From IMG/VR virus record IMGVR_UViG_3300050026_000607, positions 1 to 24,748 of that record: a stretch of 24,748 bases of DNA. One strand, 5' to 3'. Shown here piece after piece: positions 2,831 through 22,704 of this stretch. The notes under the pieces were generated by a model. The model made no database searches and was not told where the DNA came from. It saw nothing but the letters and a program-made list of their open reading frames with translations. The translations under genes were made by a program, and so were the position numbers. How positions within the stretch are numbered: position 1 is the stretch's first letter; every line of letters begins with the position of its first letter. Origin of the DNA: a virus.

Positions 2831-5800
2831 TTAGTAGGTGCCACCAGGCCGGCAGTGAAGCTCAAATGACGAAACACGCCATTGGACATCGGCGTCCGCG
2901 CTGGAAAACCGCACACGCATAAACCGACCTGAGCCGCTGCCGGGATTGACTTTGACAGGCACCGTGGCGTGTCCATTCACCAGGACAGTCTTCGGAGCCG
3001 TCCAGGTAATTGGGCCTGCGTCGCCCGGCGAGTTGTCTATGCCACTGAGCGACGGGCGGGTGCCAACCTGCACCGTCATCAAGCGCGGCGTGTCCGTCTC
3101 CTCCAGGACCTGAAGACCGAGGACCACCACGTCCACATACTTCCACCGATCTGGGTCGCCCATGTCATAGTCCATTGTCTCACTGAAGGCCAGATAGCCG
3201 TCACCGTCGCGGTTGTAAACCCTGCCGTGAAGTTGAAGCTCACCATCTGTGGTCGCCAGAATAGGAACACGGCCGAGACTTTCCCCAGTGGAGGTTGAAG
3301 TCCACTCCACCATGCCCAGCGCCGTGAATTCCTTGCTCGGGTCGTAGTCGTCAATCGTCGCGGAGTCCTCGACGTAGTTCCAAATCAAAACTCGGAAGCC
3401 ACCCACTATGGGATATTGAACCCAAATCTCTTTGCGCGGGTCGTTGTGGAAAAGCCGAATCTCGCCGAGCCGGTTGCGGTCAAGCTCCTTATAAAGTTGC
3501 CGCGTCGCTTGCTGGCATACCGGAGTGAGGTTGGGGCCGCCCTGATAGGAATAAAGCTCCTTGTGGCCAAGAAACACGAGAGTCCCGTCGAACCTATCAC
3601 ACAGCGCGCCGCGAGCAAGCAGGCCCTCGCCGTGAACTTCATTGTGGATGAAGAAGGTGCCCGCTCCCAGGCCTGTATACTGCACACTTTGAATCGAGAA
3701 CTCTTTGAACATGTAGGCGTAATCGCCCTGCGGCAGCACGCGGAGAATGGGGCCGTTCATCAGCGAGCCCACCACGCGGGTCTCGCCCGCCTCGTTGGCG
3801 TCAAGCGTGAAAAACTGTTTTCCGTCCGCCGCAGAGATGGGCTGCCCCTGCGGCGTGGCCCCTGTAAGCGGCATGAGTTGCAGCACAAGCGAGGTCCCGG
3901 TCATGCTCACGACCGTATAATAGTTGTAGTAAACAACCCCGTCGCGCGGGTCTTCCAACGAGACAATTTGATTTGCTACCAGGTCAACAGAAGCTGGGAG
4001 GGTAAACCCATTGCCGGAGACCGGAAAGTTTATCGCTTGTTCGTCCGCATCTGAGTTGACAGTCAAGTAAATACCACTATAAAGAATGGCGTCTGTGGGT
4101 GAGAACGTAACCGAAACATTCTCCACATCGCCTGGAGCAAGTGTAGCGGCGGAATTGCCCACAGTGAACCCCGTGGGCGGTAAAATCGAAGATATGATTA
4201 CGGGGAGCATTCCGTTGTTCGTAATCGTCAGCAGAGACGTGATATTGCTGCCGACGGGCACCGAGCCAAAATCAAGGCTGCCAGAAAGCAGGATTGACGC
4301 GCCCCCGACTTGGGTGCTGGTAGTTACCGCGACAGACCCTACGCCGCTGGGCGAGCCGGTGAAAGTAAAAGAGAGGACCTGACCCCCCGACGAATCCGAG
4401 TCGGATGGGGTGTAAGTAAGCTGAAAACTCTCGCAGACCCCGCCTGCGTTTTGCTTAAGATTATCGCTGGGAACCGTCGCAGAAAAGCCGGAGGCGGGTG
4501 TCATGCCGGTTATCTTGATGTTACCAGATGCGGCGTCGAGGCGGTAAACGTAAATTGTTCCCGTCACGCTCGTATTTGACGGCACGCTCTGGAACTGGCA
4601 GGTGCCCCGGTCAGTCATAAAAACCTCGTGACCGTTAAGAACCTTCTGGGCGGAGGCGGTCACATCCACGGTTGTTTGACCTGTGACCGTTACGTTGGCA
4701 GTCTTACCAACCGTTATGGTTAAAGTTCCGCTGTAATCCTGAGACGACCCTTTCGTGATCTTATCCGGCGTGAAAGTCGCCTCGACAATCTGCTGACCTC
4801 CAGCGGCAATTGTTCCAGAAGTCCATTTTAAGCTTATGCAAGGAAGAGTTGAGATACTGGTTATAAGCATCGGCGCTGTTCCGCTATTACGAATTACAAA
4901 CGCGCTCGTAACCGGAAACGTTTGGCTGCCATTTTGCGCCTTCACGAGCCCGAAGGCCAGTGAATTGCCGCCGGAACAACTGACAATGGAGATGATGTTT
5001 GATTGACCCTCCCCACTACCAGAAATAGCGTGAACAAACGTGCCCTGCGTCGCATTACAGGTGATGGTGACCGTGCCGTTATATGAGACACCGCTCGCGG
5101 GAATAAATGTGAAATTAACCGACGCTGACCCATTAGGGGGGATAACGACGGGCTTCTCAACCGTGCCCTTAAAATCACACAACATGATCGAAGGGTCGAT
5201 GTCGGTAATGGTGACACTCGTAACAGAAAGGTCTGCCGTGGCCGAGCCCGTGTTGAGAATATTGAGAGTGCGGACAGGCGAGTTGGCCGCCGTCTTACCA
5301 AGCGGGCACACGCCGAAATCAAGATCGCCCTGAAGACTCACGCTGCGCACGACGGCCAGGTCGTTTATCAGCATCACTGTAAAATTCCCAGTGGTGAGAT
5401 CGGTTGGGTCGCCGGCCGCAGGCTGGTTGAAGTTAGCCCCGAGCGTGTAAACTGCGGAGACAGCAGTCTCCGCGATTGGTATGTAATTCGTAAAATCGTC
5501 CTTGTCGCTCCACTTGAGCCGGTCTTCTTTCCAAAGCAAGACGTGTCCGGCAAACGCCGCGACGCCATCCCAGCAAGAATCGTCGCCAGACGGCAACCCG
5601 GGCAAGTCAAGAGCCTTTGAGGGGAGCGGGGGTATCCAATACTGCGCGACGTTGTCGTGCTGCGCAAAAAGAATCTTGTCATAGAAATCGTCGGCAAACC
5701 AGGGATAGCCGGGCGTAGCGGGCACTCCCAGTGTCCTTACCTGGCCGGTCGTAGGATTTGCGCAAGGAAAGAGTTGAGTAAGCGAAAGCTGAAACTGCTG

Positions 5801-6442
5801 GAGGGTGTCGTCGTAGTCGGGCGAAGCTGCCCATAGGGCTGAACCCGTTGCCAGGACAACAGGAGTAGGGACACTGTTGATAAGGTTGCCCTGAAAAATC
5901 ATGTCGAAGTCGGACCCGAGGTAGGGATACGTTAAGCCGTCTCCGTTGTTGTAGAGAAAGACAACCTCGTCATCTGTCAACACGCGCGCCCAGACGGCCG
6001 TCTGGTCCACAGCGAATGCCGCGCTCACTGAGCCAATATCTTCCCGGTCCCAATTAGCAACCTGAAAACTAGTGGTGTGGGCAGACAGAGAGGCATCGGG
6101 AGTCTGGGCCACAGCCTTATGGGCCTGGACCCCGTTTAGAAAAATAGAAATCTGAGAGGCTGCTTTGTCGTAACGCAGGCAGATATAATTCCAGCCGCCG
6201 GTGATGATGTCGTCTGTGGTTGTAACGCCGGTTGTTGTCGAAGAAACCGAGTTCCAGACTGAGAAAGACAGCCGCCCCGTATGAGTGAGGCGTAACTCCC
6301 AGGCCGGCGCGAGCAGCACGGTCGCGGGCACGAAGCCCAGCAAGTCCTGAGTCTGTAGCCAGAGGGAGACAGTGAAAGACTCATCGCTGAGATTTGTGAG
6401 AGCCAAGTCGCTGTTCTGTAGATAGGGCGCGCCAGTAGCCAT
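2831..6442 (-). CDS. Giant tail protein: partial LamG domain, ASH/HYDIN-like Ig array, conserved C-terminal body
   Basis: This 1203-residue protein starts at ATG 6442-6440, 2 nt after the upstream TAA. Residues 1-180 are LamG/concanavalin-like (ESFTVSLWLQ, WNYICLRYD, ISIFLNGVQ, WARVLTDDEVVFLYNNG) but lack the first strands of that fold. Residues 181-365 are a conserved-looking body (DKILFAQHDNVAQYWIP, LLWKEDRLKWSD). Residues about 369-813 are beta-rich Ig-like repeats, including clear ASH/HYDIN or choice-of-anchor-D signatures (LDFGVCPLG, LDFGSVPVGSNITSLLTITNNG). The body then resumes (VSLEDPRDGVVYYNYYTVV, NGPILRVLPQGDYAYMFKE, LVFLGHKELYSYQGGPN). Its length, position after the adaptor and beta content suggest a nozzle- or tail-hub-like protein. 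The missing LamG N-terminus appears to be encoded in the two preceding genes. Confidence 0.8.
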   Translation of the reverse strand: MATGAPYLQNSDLALTNLSDESFTVSLWLQTQDLLGFVPATVLLAPAWELRLTHTGRLSFSVWNSVSSTTTGVTTTDDIITGGWNYICLRYDKAASQISIFLNGVQAHKAVAQTPDASLSAHTTSFQVANWDREDIGSVSAAFAVDQTAVWARVLTDDEVVFLYNNGDGLTYPYLGSDFDMIFQGNLINSVPTPVVLATGSALWAASPDYDDTLQQFQLSLTQLFPCANPTTGQVRTLGVPATPGYPWFADDFYDKILFAQHDNVAQYWIPPLPSKALDLPGLPSGDDSCWDGVAAFAGHVLLWKEDRLKWSDKDDFTNYIPIAETAVSAVYTLGANFNQPAAGDPTDLTTGNFTVMLINDLAVVRSVSLQGDLDFGVCPLGKTAANSPVRTLNILNTGSATADLSVTSVTITDIDPSIMLCDFKGTVEKPVVIPPNGSASVNFTFIPASGVSYNGTVTITCNATQGTFVHAISGSGEGQSNIISIVSCSGGNSLAFGLVKAQNGSQTFPVTSAFVIRNSGTAPMLITSISTLPCISLKWTSGTIAAGGQQIVEATFTPDKITKGSSQDYSGTLTITVGKTANVTVTGQTTVDVTASAQKVLNGHEVFMTDRGTCQFQSVPSNTSVTGTIYVYRLDAASGNIKITGMTPASGFSATVPSDNLKQNAGGVCESFQLTYTPSDSDSSGGQVLSFTFTGSPSGVGSVAVTTSTQVGGASILLSGSLDFGSVPVGSNITSLLTITNNGMLPVIISSILPPTGFTVGNSAATLAPGDVENVSVTFSPTDAILYSGIYLTVNSDADEQAINFPVSGNGFTLPASVDLVANQIVSLEDPRDGVVYYNYYTVVSMTGTSLVLQLMPLTGATPQGQPISAADGKQFFTLDANEAGETRVVGSLMNGPILRVLPQGDYAYMFKEFSIQSVQYTGLGAGTFFIHNEVHGEGLLARGALCDRFDGTLVFLGHKELYSYQGGPNLTPVCQQATRQLYKELDRNRLGEIRLFHNDPRKEIWVQYPIVGGFRVLIWNYVEDSATIDDYDPSKEFTALGMVEWTSTSTGESLGRVPILATTDGELQLHGRVYNRDGDGYLAFSETMDYDMGDPDRWKYVDVVVLGLQVLEETDTPRLMTVQVGTRPSLSGIDNSPGDAGPITWTAPKTVLVNGHATVPVKVNPGSGSGRFMRVRFSSADADVQWRVSSFELHCRPGGTY
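4004..5338 (-). other. ASH/HYDIN-like Ig-domain array inserted in the tail protein
   Basis: Residues about 369-813 of the 1203-residue protein form an array of probably four Ig-like repeats. The first and last are the clearest: both begin LDFG-V-P-G and run through a short-strand pattern ending in SGSG or SGNG. The middle ones are more diverged, with Cys pairs. The flanking sequences (NFTVMLINDLAVVRSVS before, LVANQIVSLEDPRDGVV after) read as one continuous body. The array therefore looks like a discrete insertion of about 1.3 kb. The boundaries are estimates from sequence character. Confidence 0.7.
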
Positions 6443-6444
6443 AA

Positions 6445-7563
6445 TTAGACATTCTCAATCGTTACGTCACAGATCATGTGCGCGCCGCCGTTACCCTGAC
6501 GGGCATAGACATACACCGTGGCTGGAAAAGAAACGCCTAAGGTGTTCTGCATGGAAAACGGTATGTCAACAGTCCCGTTTTGCGCGCCCGAAAGAGTTTT
6601 GGTGAAGAAAGACGACGGCCCTGTCTTCACCTTGATAATCACAGCCGAGGCGTTAACAGCGCTCATGCCAGACGTGATTAGATGAATATTGCACGATTCA
6701 CCAAGGCCGGGAGCGGTGACGGTGGCGGTGCTGTAGGCGGTGCTGGAGGCTTGGCCTGCGCTGGCCGGATAAAGAGTAACTACGGCCCGGTCCCCGTGCG
6801 CGCTCGCGGGAGTGAAAGTTCCAGACGACCCGCCGGACAAGGTGAGCACAGGGAACGGCCACGCAAGGGCACTCCAATCCAACGCACCACCGCCGCTGCT
6901 GCCAACAGAGCCGCTGCTGCCGCCGCTGCCGATACTGCCGATACTGCCCACGTCAGAAAAAGTCACTGAAGCGGCGAAAGCCGGAGGCACGACTGAAGTG
7001 CTGGTAGTCCCAAAAATAAACCCGATACTGACATAGACGTAGCACCCACCATTAGGCACGGTGAACGGCCCATCAAAGGTCCCATCGCCAACATTGTAGG
7101 TAGCCAGCGAGCCGCGCGAGGTATAGATAGAAATGTAAACGCCGCCCGCCGGGACTTGGCCGGCACAGCCAGAGGCAACAATGCGCACGTTGGCGTCCCG
7201 GCCTGCGGCAAAGTAGATGCTCGCAGTGTGTAAACCATAAAACGCGCTGCTCACCTGAGCCTGCCCGGCATACGTGGCTTCAGCACTCCTGGCAGAGCTA
7301 GGCAGAGCCGAATATATAAAAGAACCTTTCTCACTTATCGGCACAGCGGGAGACCAGAGAAGGTCATTCCAGCTATCGCCGGGATAGGAGCCCGGTGGAA
7401 CGATTGACAGCGACGGCGAGGAGCCGGAGGAAATAAAACTCCCGGAAGTAAAACTTCCGCCGCTCGGGCCAACCGGGCCAGCTATGAAGTTCGGCAGACT
7501 GGGAAAGAACGCAGCTTTGTTGAACTTTCCGGCTTGAGAAGTGACGTGAAGAACAGTTGTCAT
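6445..7563 (-). CDS. Beta-rich tail protein carrying the middle fragment of a split LamG domain
   Basis: This 372-residue product starts at ATG 7563-7561, 6 nt after the TAG of the 352-residue gene. A GGCTGAT spacer provides a weak AGG ribosome site, so coupling or re-initiation is likely. Residues 3-22 (VLHVTSQAGKFNKAAFFPS) resemble the second-strand region of LamG domains (V-T-x-x-A-G-K-x-x-N-A-A-x-F). A Gly/Ser linker at about 33-50 then leads to two beta-sandwich-like domains (about 80-205 and 225-372), separated by another Gly/Ser stretch (SIGSIGSGGSSGSVGSSGGG). The domains contain scattered Cys and Thr/Ser-rich strands but no recognised family. A virion surface role is inferred from context. 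Confidence 0.7.
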   Translation of the reverse strand: MTTVLHVTSQAGKFNKAAFFPSLPNFIAGPVGPSGGSFTSGSFISSGSSPSLSIVPPGSYPGDSWNDLLWSPAVPISEKGSFIYSALPSSARSAEATYAGQAQVSSAFYGLHTASIYFAAGRDANVRIVASGCAGQVPAGGVYISIYTSRGSLATYNVGDGTFDGPFTVPNGGCYVYVSIGFIFGTTSTSVVPPAFAASVTFSDVGSIGSIGSGGSSGSVGSSGGGALDWSALAWPFPVLTLSGGSSGTFTPASAHGDRAVVTLYPASAGQASSTAYSTATVTAPGLGESCNIHLITSGMSAVNASAVIIKVKTGPSSFFTKTLSGAQNGTVDIPFSMQNTLGVSFPATVYVYARQGNGGAHMICDVTIENV

Positions 7564-7569
7564 ATCAGC

Positions 7570-8628
7570 CTAAGGCGTAGTGAAATTAAGCTCGCATAGC
7601 CCGTCGCAATCGGGAGCCGAAGGATTACAAAAACCCGTATCGAGACGAAATCTAATCTCTCCAGTCCAAGGCACGTTGTCGGGACTCGGCAAGATGTCCA
7701 GAGTTATAAAGTGAGTTCCGTCTATAAGCGGATACGTGTGAGAGAATGTCTTTGACCCGCCGGTCCCTAGAGTCATGTCTATAATTACACTCGCTCCGCT
7801 GGGGAAAGACCCCGTATTGTGGTAAATAACGAACTGACAGAGGACAGTCTGAGCATAACCTGACGACGTGAAGTGGCCATACTCGTCACCCACCGCACGA
7901 GAACCCATAAGAGGAACCCCGTTCGGCAAGTCGAAAGTGAAACTTGTATACTGAGAAGTGGCGGCAATACCTGGGGACGCCGTGATAGTGCCGTTATTCG
8001 TCCCGGTCAAAACAACCGGAGCATCCCAATCCACATAGAACTGAGTGAGATCGGGAGCACCAGAACTGCCCTCGATTATTTCGACGCTGCCACCACTTGA
8101 GCCGGGGCCGCTGGAGCCGCCGCTGGAGCCACCGCTTGAGCCGCTGGAGCCACCGCTTGAGCCGCTGGAGCCGCCGCTTGAGCCGCCGCTGGAGCCACCG
8201 CTTGAGCCGCCGCTGGAGCCACCGCTAGAGCCACCGCTGGAGCCGCCGCTGGAGCCACCGCTGGAGCCGCCGCTGGAGCCGCCGCTGGAGCCGGGCGCGC
8301 TGCCGTCATAGGACCCGAGAACCTCAACGAGAGTGTGATTGTGCCCAGCCACATCATAACGGTTTCCAGTCGCCTCATCCATAGACCAGCTGGCAACAAT
8401 GGCCTGTAGCACAGGAGCGGAAAGACTGATAACCTCGTAACCAGGAGCCGTGCAGACAACACCATCCTCAAAACGCACATTGCTAGCCTTTGTCGCAGCG
8501 CGTATAAGGGAGCCGGGAACGATGCCGCCCTGCGAAGCCATGCGGTCTGCCAGTTCACCGGGAAGACGAGTGACTAAGCCGCGCGTGGGGGCCTTGACTC
8601 TAACGCTGATTGGTTTTGCGCGGCGCAT
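7570..8628 (-). CDS. Tail protein with LamG N-terminal fragment, SSGG repeat linker and beta domain
   Basis: This 352-residue protein starts at ATG 8628-8626, 14 nt after the upstream TAG. Residues 1-66 (KAPTRGLVTRLPGELADRM, NVRFEDGVVCTAPGYEV) look like a conserved phage tail N-terminus. Residues 75-105 (VASWSMDEATGNRYDVAG) match the start of a LamG domain, which then stops. A linker of about 17 SSGG-type repeats (residues about 111-180) follows, then a beta-rich domain of about 165 residues ending in a four-Cys cluster (CNPSAPDCDGLC). The LamG fold is incomplete here, and its continuation appears at the starts of the next two genes. The linker and terminal domain read as an inserted cassette. 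Confidence 0.75.
   Translation of the reverse strand: MRRAKPISVRVKAPTRGLVTRLPGELADRMASQGGIVPGSLIRAATKASNVRFEDGVVCTAPGYEVISLSAPVLQAIVASWSMDEATGNRYDVAGHNHTLVEVLGSYDGSAPGSSGGSSGGSSGGSSGGSSGGSSGGSSGGSSGGSSGGSSGGSSGSSGGSSGSSGGSSGGSSGPGSSGGSVEIIEGSSGAPDLTQFYVDWDAPVVLTGTNNGTITASPGIAATSQYTSFTFDLPNGVPLMGSRAVGDEYGHFTSSGYAQTVLCQFVIYHNTGSFPSGASVIIDMTLGTGGSKTFSHTYPLIDGTHFITLDILPSPDNVPWTGEIRFRLDTGFCNPSAPDCDGLCELNFTTP
8099..8293 (-). repeat. 12-bp minisatellite encoding the SSGG linker
   Basis: This is a tandem array of near-identical 12-bp units (GAGCC-rich on the plus strand) encoding SSGG on the minus strand. A few 9-bp units encode SSG. The unit length keeps the reading frame, so the linker can lengthen or shorten without breaking the protein. 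Confidence 0.95.
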
Positions 8629-9029
8629 GGTAAATCGCCAGCCTAACTGTAGTCCGCCGTAAGCGTGGCCGAAGAAGGACAGCTATTTGAATTCGCGCCT
8701 GTTATGCGGAGCCTGGGAACCAGTCTCCATCTAGTGGTGTTTAACGGAACAACAACCCCATCAGCATGCACCGGGAAGGGGGCACCACAAGCGCCTTCAG
8801 GTCCTCCAGACACGCCATTGCCGCCACCATACCAAACAAGGTCCCCAGTTTCGTCGTTATAGAGCTGCCATCCCCAATCAACACCCACGTCTGCGGAAGA
8901 GCTAACAACGGCATCGCTTGACAAAGTTAGACTGTGCGTTGAGTCGCCCGGCGTGATGATATAAGAAGTGCCATAACTTTGCCCTGTCGTACTGCGAGCA
9001 AGGGAGACTGTAACAGGGAACACAGTCGG
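8616..9029 (-). repeat. 414-bp duplicated cassette, tail copy
   Basis: This block matches 16778-17191 with a single difference (G at 8941, A at 17103; Ser versus Leu in the protein). It covers the TVFPV beta domain, its TAG stop, the 14-nt spacer, and the ATG plus first codons of the 352-residue gene. Confidence 0.98.
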
Positions 9030-9357: not shown

Positions 9358-9891
9358 CTAAAGCGCCGCGTAGCGGCTTCCTTTTCTCAAGTTCTCTTCT
9401 GCCCAAAGGGGCTGGAGATTGGTGTAATGAAAACAAGCTTTTTGTTGGGCCGGGTCGGTCAAGTCGAAAGAGGCACAGGGCTTGCGGTGGTCAATATGCC
9501 AAGCGCCGTGATTGTCCCACGACATGCCCGGCTGAAATTGAGAGGCAAGATACTGCTTCAAAAACTCGGGAGTGCAACCCACGAGAATAAAAGATTTGTC
9601 GGACTTACGAGTCCCCCTTAACACCCGGCCAATTCGGCAGCGCACCATATTTGAAAGCCGTATATGGGGATTACGGGCCAAACACGCCTTCATAACCTCC
9701 CTCCGCCTCTTCGGATTCTGGGCGCACCACCGCTTTGAATGAACCCTTCCAAAGAACCGAGCCCTATCAGGATTAGCAGCCCTCCATTTCCGGCTCTGCG
9801 CAGTGTTAATCCTTCGCTGAGCCTCGGGGTCGCGACTCCGGTATTCCTGCATATAGAGACGCATCCACTCCCGTTTTTCCTCGGCATTCAT
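9358..9891 (-). CDS. HNH homing endonuclease
   Basis: This 177-residue protein starts at ATG 9891-9889, overlapping the adaptor's stop codon by 4 nt (ATGA). The N-terminal 75 residues are basic, with repeated K/R-W motifs (SRKWRAANPDR, SKRWCAQNPKRR) expected to bind DNA. The HNH core lies in the C-terminal third: GMSWDNHG (about 122-129), WHIDHRKPCASFDL (131-144) and YTNLQPLWAEENLRKG (156-171). These supply the His-Asp-His and Asn residues of the metal site. Free-standing HNH genes of this type are common mobile elements in phage genomes. It sits between the adaptor and the cassette-rich tail genes and may have moved there independently. The catalytic residues look intact. Confidence 0.9.
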   Translation of the reverse strand: MNAEEKREWMRLYMQEYRSRDPEAQRRINTAQSRKWRAANPDRARFFGRVHSKRWCAQNPKRRREVMKACLARNPHIRLSNMVRCRIGRVLRGTRKSDKSFILVGCTPEFLKQYLASQFQPGMSWDNHGAWHIDHRKPCASFDLTDPAQQKACFHYTNLQPLWAEENLRKGSRYAAL

Positions 9892-11210
9892 AGGCGAGTT
9901 TCCAGGCCGCGAACATCCGAGTAGGAGTCTTGACGTATGGCTTCCCCAAGTCGTTTTTCAAACTCCATCTCGGCTTGCGTGGCAATCTCATCGTTGATTT
10001 CAGTGAAGGCAATCTCTTTGGCCTTGGCGAGGATGAGTTTCGGGTAAGCGTCCACTAGAGGCGACGTGTCGGTGTCGGCAACCATGTCCGGCAGATAGCC
10101 GTAATACTTGACGCGGAAATTGAAGGGATGCGAGAGCGGCTCCAAGACACCCAGCAAAGCGCCTGTCGCCGTGCGCTCGAAGAACACACGCGGGGGCCAT
10201 GTGCAGATAGGAGTCCCGCCGAAGGCCCAGACGCGGCGAATCTGCTGCTCCTCGGTCACGAGGTCGGCCGGTATGAATTGTCCGTCGTCTGTAATATACT
10301 GAACGGCTTCGCGCTTCTGAAGCTCTTTGAAGTCTAAGGGCAGCGGGGCAGTTTGCTTTTCGTTCAGGTCCAGCGGAATCGGGACCGCTGGAGTGTTGAC
10401 TACGATAGAGACAACGTCAAGCTGTAGCCACTGGCCGTTGTAGGGCTGAGCTAAAAGCAGAGGGGGGTCGTTATCAGGACAACTGGCATAGGCCGGCAGA
10501 AGGCCGTCGTAGAGACCGCCTCGCGACGCCAGGCGAATGGTTGCGCCAACAGCTATCTGAACGGAAAACTCATAGTTCGTTATGCCATAATCGCTTGCCC
10601 ACGGAGTGGGAGGATAAACCCCATCTGTGGGGGGAAGAAGGGTGCCGGTAACCAGGCTGTTGTTTACCAGCAGCATCTGAGGCGGGTCAGAGATAGTCAA
10701 GGAGTATTGAAACTCAACAGGCCCATAGTATCCGGGTGTCCCGCCTCCTGTCAGCCCGTTTGTGAAGGGGTAATTAGAAACATAGAGAGGCCCAGTGAAT
10801 TGAACAACTCGACTGACCGGGGTTGGGAGTATATATCTCTCCTCACAGATTTCACTGTAGTTCACATTCGCAACGTCGCCGCGCAGCTTGAAGGTCACGG
10901 TGCATATAGTCCCCGGCGTCCCTTGAAGCGTCGCATATTGGTCTGCTTCGGGATTTGGGTTGGTGAGGAAATTATAGCCGTCGTTTGGAACATTCCAAAG
11001 CAGGCGGCTGAGTCCGGTAGGAACAAGCGCGACGGGCGGTGCCGGCGGGTAGACAGAGACATCCACCTGGCGCTTCATCTGGACGAAAGAGTGGCGGTTT
11101 TCGGTTTCCCGAATTGCCTCATTCAAGTAGTCTCCGTAGAAGGGAGCGAGGTCGTCACGGAGGACACTGACACCGAGACGAGCTTTAAGCTGGGCGAATG
11201 TTTGGCTCAT
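9888..11210 (-). CDS. Head-tail adaptor-like protein with a large inserted beta domain
   Basis: This 440-residue protein starts at ATG 11210-11208, just after a terminator. Residues 1-53 (FAQLKARLG, DYLNEAIRETENRHSF) and 289-440 (PLPLDFKELQKREAVQYITD, RVFFERTATGALLGVLEP, FNFRVKYYGYLPDM, AEMEFEKRLGEAIRQD) together resemble a short-tailed phage adaptor of about 200 residues: an N-terminal helical pair, an FKEL strand, then C-terminal helices. Residues about 54-288 are a Pro/Thr/Tyr-rich beta segment that interrupts the expected fold. The family call rests on motif order and position after the capsid gene. A C-terminal helix pair near the end would contact the portal ring in known adaptors. Confidence 0.75.
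   Translation of the reverse strand: MSQTFAQLKARLGVSVLRDDLAPFYGDYLNEAIRETENRHSFVQMKRQVDVSVYPPAPPVALVPTGLSRLLWNVPNDGYNFLTNPNPEADQYATLQGTPGTICTVTFKLRGDVANVNYSEICEERYILPTPVSRVVQFTGPLYVSNYPFTNGLTGGGTPGYYGPVEFQYSLTISDPPQMLLVNNSLVTGTLLPPTDGVYPPTPWASDYGITNYEFSVQIAVGATIRLASRGGLYDGLLPAYASCPDNDPPLLLAQPYNGQWLQLDVVSIVVNTPAVPIPLDLNEKQTAPLPLDFKELQKREAVQYITDDGQFIPADLVTEEQQIRRVWAFGGTPICTWPPRVFFERTATGALLGVLEPLSHPFNFRVKYYGYLPDMVADTDTSPLVDAYPKLILAKAKEIAFTEINDEIATQAEMEFEKRLGEAIRQDSYSDVRGLETRL
10347..11051 (-). other. Beta-domain insertion within the adaptor
   Basis: Residues about 54-288 of the adaptor (from PPAPPVALVPTG to LDLNEKQTA) are Pro-, Tyr- and Thr-rich with alternating strand-like patterns. Removing them joins RQVDVSVYP to PLPLDFKELQ, which gives the order expected of an uninterrupted adaptor. 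The limits are approximate. Confidence 0.6.
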
Positions 11211-16777: not shown

Positions 16778-17191
16778 TTGCGCGGCGCATGGTAAATCGC
16801 CAGCCTAACTGTAGTCCGCCGTAAGCGTGGCCGAAGAAGGACAGCTATTTGAATTCGCGCCTGTTATGCGGAGCCTGGGAACCAGTCTCCATCTAGTGGT
16901 GTTTAACGGAACAACAACCCCATCAGCATGCACCGGGAAGGGGGCACCACAAGCGCCTTCAGGTCCTCCAGACACGCCATTGCCGCCACCATACCAAACA
17001 AGGTCCCCAGTTTCGTCGTTATAGAGCTGCCATCCCCAATCAACACCCACGTCTGCGGAAGAGCTAACAACGGCATCGCTTGACAAAGTTAGACTGTGCG
17101 TTAAGTCGCCCGGCGTGATGATATAAGAAGTGCCATAACTTTGCCCTGTCGTACTGCGAGCAAGGGAGACTGTAACAGGGAACACAGTCGG
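16778..17191 (-). repeat. 414-bp duplicated cassette, portal-proximal copy
   Basis: This block is identical to 8616-9029 apart from one base (17103). It includes the TVFPV domain, its TAG stop, and the ATG plus first codons (MRRA) belonging to the 352-residue tail gene. Here those codons lead nowhere useful. This suggests the sequence was copied from the tail locus to this place. Confidence 0.98.
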
Positions 17192-20700: not shown

Positions 20701-22704
20701 TTAGTAATACCGCTTCGAGATGTTGGGGGTTTCCTTCCGCTCCAGCGCGCCGATGGTGTTCTTGGACTGCTCGACTTCCTCTCTTAATAAGCGCAAGCAA
20801 TTGAATTTTGCGTAACGGCTGGCGTCACAATTGCTCACCAAAATGCCGCTGGCAAAATACTCGTGCTCGCCTTCTACAGTCAGGTTATACACCGGCTCGC
20901 GTCTGGCGGGGCTTGTAGGGCCGGCATACCGGACAACCCCTAGACCTAACCCGGGCGTAGCAGTTCTGAAGATACTTCGCTCCACACGCGGCGCAAACTC
21001 GCTCGACACGCATAGAACAGAATCATTCTCATCTAAACAACATACCTCCTTCCACTCTCCAACGCAAGTCCAAACTGGGTGATTTTTTGTAGCCCGAAAG
21101 CTCCTTCCATTAGTGAAGGAGTAGCCGCGCGTTTCGGCGTCGGACGCCGTCCTCCAGGACTGCAAAACTCGGCGCAGCCCCGCGCGCGTCCAAACAAACT
21201 CGCCCGCTCTGATTTCTGAAATAGGCTTCTCGCCAAACTCAGTGAGAATCAGCGTGTCGCCGGAAAAGCAAATGTGGTCGTAGTCTCCGCCCGCAGGCCC
21301 TTTCAACGGCTCGTCGCCACCGAAACCGGGTTCTCCTTCGACGGGGTAGCGGTAGCCGCCCCCGCTCGCAATGTAAAGCATGGGGCAGGTGCCCTTATCA
21401 ATCCGGTAAATGTCCTTGTCGAATCGGTCCTTCTTCGTCAGCAAGCGGTTGTAAACGGCAATGGATTCCTGAAGGCCCATGCGGATAAAACCGGGGTGGA
21501 TGTCGTAGGTGTGAAGAACCTTGACGCTCGAACCTTTGTCCGTCTTGGCGTTGCCGGCTGGGTCACAATAATCCTTCACGCCAGAGCAAATGGAACGGTC
21601 GTTCCAGAAAGGGAAAACCGACTCAGTGATTTCCAGGACCGCTTTGCATTGCCGGTCCACGTCTGACTGGCGCGCGAAATACTCGTGCAGGTCCCACCAG
21701 TATTCGTCTTTATCGTCCGCCCAATACGCGGAGAAGACAACCGCGTGCGTAGAGCCAAAGTCCCAGCCACGAATCAGATAGGCTCCTGACGGCCAGGGCA
21801 AGTTCTCGTAAGCGTGGCTCTGGTGGAAAGAGTAAAGCACTGGCGTCCCGTCAAAGGCGTCCGCATACTTGCCCAGGACCATCCGGTCATACATGGCCGG
21901 GTTGCTGCGGTATTGGCGCTCCAGGCTCTCAGTGTAGCCGGCAGGCAGGTTGTGCGCGTTGTCGCGCGTGCGCAGGTGCCAGAAGCGCACTGAGGGGTCG
22001 TCCTTCGACTCCTTCTCAAGCTTCGCAATCCAGTGCTTCGTCCCGGGCGGGTTAGTGTCAAGAATTATACCAGAATCCCGAATGAAGCCCTTGTTGTCAC
22101 AGGTTGCCGGGTCCGCCCCTTTCCACCGCAGCGTGGCGACGCCCAGGTCCAGGTCTTCCTTCGCAAGCTGGTCCGCCTCGACAAAGATCAAGAGAGAGCA
22201 CTCGTAACCACGGAAGCGGCTGGCTCGATAACGCTCTTCAGGCACGCCCGCGAAATAAACCCAGGAGCAGAAGAGGTTTCCCACGGACTCAAGCCAGACT
22301 AGAGTTTGCGCTTTCGTAGCGCGGGGGGTGGTGGTCTTCCAGGCGTTGAATTTTTCAACTGCCATCTGTGACGGGAACCGAAAGCACTTACCCCCGTCAA
22401 GCTTTTTGAAAAGTGAAACCCCGGTGTCCTGGTAAGCAGTTCCCATGTTGGGAAAAACCTGATGCTCAAAAGTTTCAAGTGTAGTGTCCTGGTTGCTGTC
22501 CTGAGTCTTCCGCAGAATATACGCTTTCGCGCCCGCGTTGAAAAAGCAGTGACTTATGGCTTCAACAGCAATCCCGGTAGTTTTTCCCGTTCCACGTCCG
22601 CCGACAAGCGCCCTAATTGTGGCCCGGCTTTTGTGAAACTCCTGCATATCGGGTGAAGGCCGATACCAGGAAGCGGGAAGAGTCAGGTCTGAATTGTTGT
22701 CCAT
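20701..22704 (-). CDS. terL: Terminase large subunit with an in-frame mini-intein
   Basis: This 667-residue precursor starts at ATG 22704-22702. It packages DNA into the prohead using ATP and cuts the concatemer. The ATPase half has Walker A GGRGTGKTT (35-43), a Walker-B-like LLIFVEADQL (171-180, V-E-A-D rather than D-E) and an ILDTNPPG segment (214-221). The nuclease half has GWDFGSTHAVVF (313-324) and VKDYCDPAGNA (376-386). The last motif, DHICDASRYAKF, is split by a 147-residue intein. Without the intein the protein is about 520 residues, normal for the family. It is followed by the promoter at 20670-20698. No small terminase is obvious, though the cut-off gene at 24404-24748 is a candidate. 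Confidence 0.97.
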   Translation of the reverse strand: MDNNSDLTLPASWYRPSPDMQEFHKSRATIRALVGGRGTGKTTGIAVEAISHCFFNAGAKAYILRKTQDSNQDTTLETFEHQVFPNMGTAYQDTGVSLFKKLDGGKCFRFPSQMAVEKFNAWKTTTPRATKAQTLVWLESVGNLFCSWVYFAGVPEERYRASRFRGYECSLLIFVEADQLAKEDLDLGVATLRWKGADPATCDNKGFIRDSGIILDTNPPGTKHWIAKLEKESKDDPSVRFWHLRTRDNAHNLPAGYTESLERQYRSNPAMYDRMVLGKYADAFDGTPVLYSFHQSHAYENLPWPSGAYLIRGWDFGSTHAVVFSAYWADDKDEYWWDLHEYFARQSDVDRQCKAVLEITESVFPFWNDRSICSGVKDYCDPAGNAKTDKGSSVKVLHTYDIHPGFIRMGLQESIAVYNRLLTKKDRFDKDIYRIDKGTCPMLYIASGGGYRYPVEGEPGFGGDEPLKGPAGGDYDHICFSGDTLILTEFGEKPISEIRAGEFVWTRAGLRRVLQSWRTASDAETRGYSFTNGRSFRATKNHPVWTCVGEWKEVCCLDENDSVLCVSSEFAPRVERSIFRTATPGLGLGVVRYAGPTSPARREPVYNLTVEGEHEYFASGILVSNCDASRYAKFNCLRLLREEVEQSKNTIGALERKETPNISKRYY
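20830..21270 (-). other. Mini-intein (Hint domain, no endonuclease) in the terminase
   Basis: The intein spans terminase residues 479-625. It begins CFSGDTLILTEFGEKPISEI (Cys1, block A) and has a block-B-like ATKNHPVWT. It then has a C-terminal block (PVYNLTVEGEHEYFASGI) and ends LVSN, with Cys626 as the +1 extein residue. There is no LAGLIDADG or HNH insertion. The penultimate residue is Ser, not the usual His. Excision joins DHI to CDASRYA, restoring the third acidic motif of the terminase nuclease. Activity therefore depends on splicing. Confidence 0.93.

Follow-up and report, generated by a model that had tools for sequence, protein, structure and literature searches.

The window, a virus contig of 24.7 kb, carries a tail nozzle gene of the P22 gp10/SU10 gp17 type in three pieces, the consecutive open reading frames ORF1 (7570–8628), ORF2 (6445–7563), and ORF3 (2831–6442) of the minus strand. 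The nozzle protein has an inserted LamG domain, situated after its N-terminal arm and ahead of propeller blade 1, and both cuts fall within this domain: ORF1 encodes the N-arm and strand 1 of the inserted jellyroll, ORF2 starts with strand 2, and ORF3 contains the remaining LamG domain, an Ig-like stack, and the propeller. Taken as a whole, our account is that a LamG-bearing nozzle was split twice by cassettes and that the three separate products reassemble via strand complementation, to which we assign a probability of about 0.7.

The tail nozzle is the part through which DNA passes into the host. The structural module of the window lies on the minus strand, as do the nozzle pieces and both copies of the duplicated segment described below, and is SU10-like; Pfam matches identified, in this order, the terminase, the portal (PF23899), the major capsid protein (MCP, PF17236), and the adaptor (PF24175), followed by the region of the split gene. 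With the SU10 portal, MCP, and adaptor families matched in order, the gene downstream of the adaptor occupies the nozzle position. The C-terminal part of ORF3 (2834–3976) belongs to the virion protein family phrog_3287 (E 2e-20) and corresponds to the C-terminal propeller/platform of the nozzle; it is preceded by Ig-like domains of the HYDIN/ASPM/DUF1573 type (3977–5335, approximate limits, Pfam). The AlphaFold model of an unsplit homologue (L005) matched the nozzles of Pa223 (Z 20.3), SU10 (Z 19.0), and P22 (Z 17.9), with the match starting at nozzle residue ~51–54; this full-length model is of moderate quality (mean pLDDT 57), and as its residues 1–145 are unplaced it is silent on strands 1 and 2. 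The propeller of the SU10 nozzle has seven blades, is closed in blade 1, and accommodates inserted Ig-like domains between its second and third blades; a platform is also part of this nozzle (PMC9509320). The Ig-like stack of ORF3, within its approximate limits, has a comparable position. The propeller fold and the gene order portal-MCP-adaptor-nozzle are common to the window and the systems of SU10, P22, and Pa223, and with SU10 the window further shares the Ig-like insert within the propeller. However, each of these nozzles is one polypeptide, and neither a LamG domain nor a cut has been described for them. Searches of the open-access literature turned up neither a split nozzle nor a nozzle with a LamG domain.

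The preliminary description of this DNA had reported LamG motifs in three consecutive frames, and all of them were found at the positions claimed, on the minus strand. The closely spaced stops and starts were recovered as well: ORF1 ends with TAG, followed after 6 nt by the ATG of ORF2, which itself ends with TAA, 2 nt ahead of the ATG of ORF3. ORF1 and ORF2 share one frame and are separated by a single TAG, and ORF3 lies in a different frame from ORF2. Residues 1–68 of ORF1 (8425–8628) form the N-terminal arm, the expected platform segment of the nozzle; its alignment with seven relatives contains the invariant GL..P..NxR.DG..APG, and the N-arm HMM matches every relative, split and unsplit. 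LamG fragment 1 (strand 1) follows at residues 69–112 (8293–8424) and aligns with the intact LamG of L005, L007, L045, and L046. Fragment 2 (strand 2, VTSQAGKFNKAAFFP) comprises residues 1–28 of ORF2 (7480–7563) and matches VGSEGGQFALAAVFP of L002, and fragment 3, the remainder of the jellyroll, comprises residues 6–176 of ORF3 (5915–6427). Within fragment 3, residues 15–160 match Pfam Laminin_G_3 (PF13385) above the cut-off (E 5e-14), and since this match begins at profile position 11, the start of the domain is absent from ORF3. A profile for the missing start was built from the first part of the domain, using relatives only. It matched residues 69–117 of ORF1 (36 bits, E 4e-13) and, when residues 1–30 of ORF2 were searched, residues 9–23 (13.1 bits, E 6e-6); with the two pieces joined in gene order, the score was 52.6 bits (E 3e-18). 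As the ORF2 piece is short (~15 conserved residues), its support is weaker than that for the ORF1 piece.

When ORF3, the adaptor, or ORF2 was used directly as a query against viral contigs, no relatives were returned. Relatives were gathered by profile searches with the MCP and the nozzle; those retrieved with the capsid protein show 52–81% capsid identity. A search for homologues with an unsplit LamG had been proposed as a check, and such homologues exist, with the joint intact and colinear with the three pieces of the window. In L004, L005, L008, and L007 one protein of 869–872 aa runs from an ORF1-type N-arm through an intact LamG to an ORF3-type body. In the more distant L044, L045, and L046 a single long protein (1011–1069 aa in L045 and L046) likewise contains the complete LamG, and in L040, L047, L049, and L048 the nozzle protein is unsplit and without LamG. 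Because the unsplit relatives span N-arm, LamG, and body, the three ORFs of the window derive from a single ancestral gene.

A maximum-likelihood tree was built from the blade and C-terminal regions that the nozzle proteins share. In it, the LamG phages form one clade (100) in which the unsplit lineages diverge first, and the split-LamG phages (the window, L002, L003, and L025) form a clade nested in the unsplit ones (bootstrap 97). The cut between FP and PYL (FP/PYL) is found at the identical place in all four split-LamG genomes; since their clade is nested in unsplit lineages, this cut is derived and common to the four phages. The cut between strands 1 and 2 was seen only in the window and may be younger than the FP/PYL cut, or may have been lost in the other phages. 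The earlier proposal that two insertions split one gene therefore stands in so far as one nozzle gene was split twice, but not as one event, as the cuts differ in their distribution. L025 (CAIYDQ010000167.1), a contig binned in a Geobacter MAG, is a phage relative of the window; its nozzle pieces are separated by three additional ORFs, of which two are homologous to one another and to the ORF in the middle of the L003 arrangement.

Some relatives without LamG are split as well, but at a different loop that follows the first blade-1 strands (L011, L021, L034–L037, L041, L042, L012, L026, and L038). L011, L021, L034–L037, L041, and L042 carry a metallophosphatase and, where scanned, also Big_2 and VWA domains, and L012 and L026 carry PKD domains near the blade-1 cut. 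As the LamG members are continuous at the blade-1 loop and these split members without LamG are continuous at the LamG site, the nozzle gene underwent at least two independent fissions. The sequences indicate that nozzle fission has recurred, at two different loops. The phosphatase is calcineurin-like and was located on the N-terminal nozzle pieces (L011 14688–16946, L021 4346–7015, L041 14283–16460, and L042 11608–13743), with Big_2 and VWA matches (Pfam) in those of L011 and L042; such pieces represent an enzyme on the phage tail hub.

In ORF1, fragment 1 is followed by a (GSSG)n linker of 12-nt tandem repeats (8077–8292) and a C-terminal domain that is probably beta-rich (7573–8073) and for which neither a Pfam match nor, among viral contigs, a relative over the region was found. 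ORF2 contains two orphan domains, the first with linkers (6919–7443) and the second at 6448–6888, which are homologous to each other (E 2e-6) and had no external relatives among the viral contigs searched. The 237-aa ORF just upstream of ORF1 has the make-up of the ORF1 tail, consisting of linker, domain, and TAG. The junction ahead of the ORF2 ATG, TAG GCTGAT (7564–7572), carries the motif TTAGGCTG, which on that strand of the window is confined to the ends of three reading frames, the 237-aa and 186-aa ORFs and ORF1. A stretch of 414 nt (8616–9029), made up of a domain, TAG, a spacer, and the next start with the first ORF1 codons, has a second copy that differs at a single position; this copy (16778–17191) is flanked by the portal gene and a 95-aa gene and makes the 186-aa ORF. 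This duplication implies that cassettes of domain plus stop plus start moved within this genome, and such a cassette probably made the second cut. The basis for the cut between strands 1 and 2 is one contig with a single in-frame TAG, and ORF1 and ORF2 are in one frame, as would be expected if the TAG had arisen through a sequencing error, or through a single nonsense mutation within an insertion that kept the frame, and only one split were real. However, the TAG stands at the end of a domain, within the same motif that closes the 237-aa cassette, and an ATG follows 6 nt past it; we consider an error or a nonsense mutation unlikely.

Separate translation of the three ORFs would be the simplest reading. 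The shared frame of ORF1 and ORF2 with its single TAG could also allow read-through from ORF1 into ORF2 and, with a frameshift into ORF3, the production of some full-length protein. Nevertheless, TAG ends many genes here (the portal, HNH, 237-aa, and 362-aa ORFs) and is an ordinary stop, no tRNA was found in the window, and the frames of ORF2 and ORF3 differ. Stop type, frame, and spacing are variable among relatives, with no conserved context. In addition, the N and C pieces of L002, L003, L025, L011, L038, L041, and L042 have separate ORFs between them, in L011 a DUF6734 gene; with whole genes between the pieces the products in these relatives are not one chain, which argues against read-through there. 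Joining in translation is thus very unlikely in our view, although the TAG of the window itself may be read through to some extent. Even less credible is splicing at the RNA or protein level, by an intron or a split intein, that would restore one polypeptide: while a Hint/intein-like domain is present inside the terminase of this phage, the Pfam search gave none in ORF1–3, no Rfam intron family was detected at gathering thresholds in five loci (the window, L002, L003, L005, and L012), and the inserts consist of open reading frames that are continuous in frame with linkers.

The LamG fragments of ORF1 and ORF2 could be relics, with ORF1 an independent small tail protein and the LamG of ORF3 working without strands 1 and 2. 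These strands are the first of the fold, common descent by itself can preserve short fragments, and fragment 2 was not confidently placed in either AlphaFold model (L005 and L046). Against this stands the conservation of the pieces. Across the four split genomes the synonymous sites of fragment 1 are saturated (pS 0.69–0.89; pN/pS ~0.3–0.6), yet its 39 residues align without gaps at 38–74% identity, and between the window and L002 identity is 0.44 for fragment 1 and 0.45 for fragment 3, the LamG body, so that fragment 1 changes at the rate of the rest of the domain and is not decaying. The W, E, R, and D positions that are invariant in intact LamG are retained in the split fragments; the attached domains, by contrast, differ. 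We regard relics as unlikely. The separated products remain under selection, where a relic would be expected to be lost, and their conservation suggests that the three parts can still be fitted to one another.

The fold of the joint was approached with the intact LamG of L046, predicted alone (mean pLDDT 63.5, pTM 0.69). In this model, residues 1–211 match solved jellyrolls (Z ~17) and fragment 1 forms a strand at residues 9–14; confidence is low (pLDDT <50) for residues 16–69, the stretch containing fragment 2, and the AlphaFold models were based on a shallow alignment of 12 sequences. A single-sequence search of solved structures with the L046 LamG gave no significant match and a profile was needed; the A7 profile, combining the joined fragments and the intact domains, matched the arabinanase LamG 5hon (E 8e-6), colinear over the three parts. 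We infer that the three pieces probably reassemble into one LamG. The best LamG matches were clostridial receptor-binding domains (Foldseek, VIA), a common jellyroll fold that was not read as function.

The course of events that we propose starts from a short-tailed phage with an SU10/P22-type nozzle, in which an extra LamG (a ConA-like jellyroll) would have been located between the N-terminal arm and the first blade. In the ancestor of the four-phage clade, domain-coding DNA of foreign origin, bringing a stop and a start of its own, would have entered the LamG loop at FP/PYL and split the gene, and a further cassette of this kind (Gly/Ser linker, domain, stop, and start) would have cut the gene once more in the window lineage, between strands 1 and 2. 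Each ORF would be translated separately, with starts 2–6 nt past the stops, and the products most likely reassemble non-covalently, by beta-strand complementation, strand 1 of ORF1 and strand 2 of ORF2 completing the jellyroll of ORF3. The completed jellyroll would be the joint that connects the N-arm with the body of the nozzle, and the extra domains would hang from the tail hub as free C-terminal ends, probably as host-binding modules. In donor-strand complementation during pilus assembly, a missing beta strand comes from another chain; here another chain would likewise supply the missing strand, although the likeness is an analogy only. More tentatively, the beta-sheet joint might act as a plug, with single LamG or propeller strands as docking tags that clip domain-bearing proteins, separate and exchangeable, into the nozzle; fission at two loops might then be an evolved cargo display where in-frame insertion cannot accommodate the termini.

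The closest precedent is found in phage genes-in-pieces, such as Aeh1 NrdA split by mobE, the T4 topoisomerase gene split by mobA, and gp43A/43B (PMC2988022). As in these cases, the nozzle gene is contiguous in relatives and split into separate ORFs by insertion in the window. Reassembly of the products has been shown for Aeh1 NrdA, which still works when split, and 43A and 43B co-purify (PMC2988022). However, the splits reviewed for T4-like phages affect enzymes, and the interrupting element is mostly a homing endonuclease, which is typical of the split but not universal, as gp43A/B of 44RR are separated by a spacer only, whereas here domain-coding DNA lies in the gene of a virion protein, and one small jellyroll is cut twice, into three. 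The mitochondrial cox2 of a wasp is similar in that insertional fission yielded complementary polypeptides that are thought to pair, but this occurred in a different genome, was nuclease-linked, and involved one cut (PMC5374615). Between the nozzle pieces of the window no homing endonuclease was found; an HNH endonuclease ORF (9358–9891) follows the adaptor gene, 0.7 kb upstream of the pieces. Its homologue in L003 (41%, 5475–5975) is located before the portal.

A virion part needed for DNA delivery has been split recurrently, at two loops, with domain genes at the cut, and this suggests a route by which phages add domains to the tail hub. One small jellyroll distributed over three proteins would be a natural test, within a virus, of how much cutting a beta-sandwich tolerates without losing its ability to assemble. 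Nozzle genes in such phages can be expected to be misannotated as several unrelated genes.

The terminase large subunit (20701–22704) contains its Hint/intein-like stretch at about residues 478–625 (Pfam Hint_2/Intein_splicing), apparently a mini-intein. The adaptor (10353–11051) has an insert of ~230 residues (53–285) that matches no Pfam family and is missing from the L002 adaptor; unlike the nozzle gene, the adaptor gene is in one piece. At 1073–1704, short genes with tandem partial duplications are present, one copy of which contains a run of 17 glycines.
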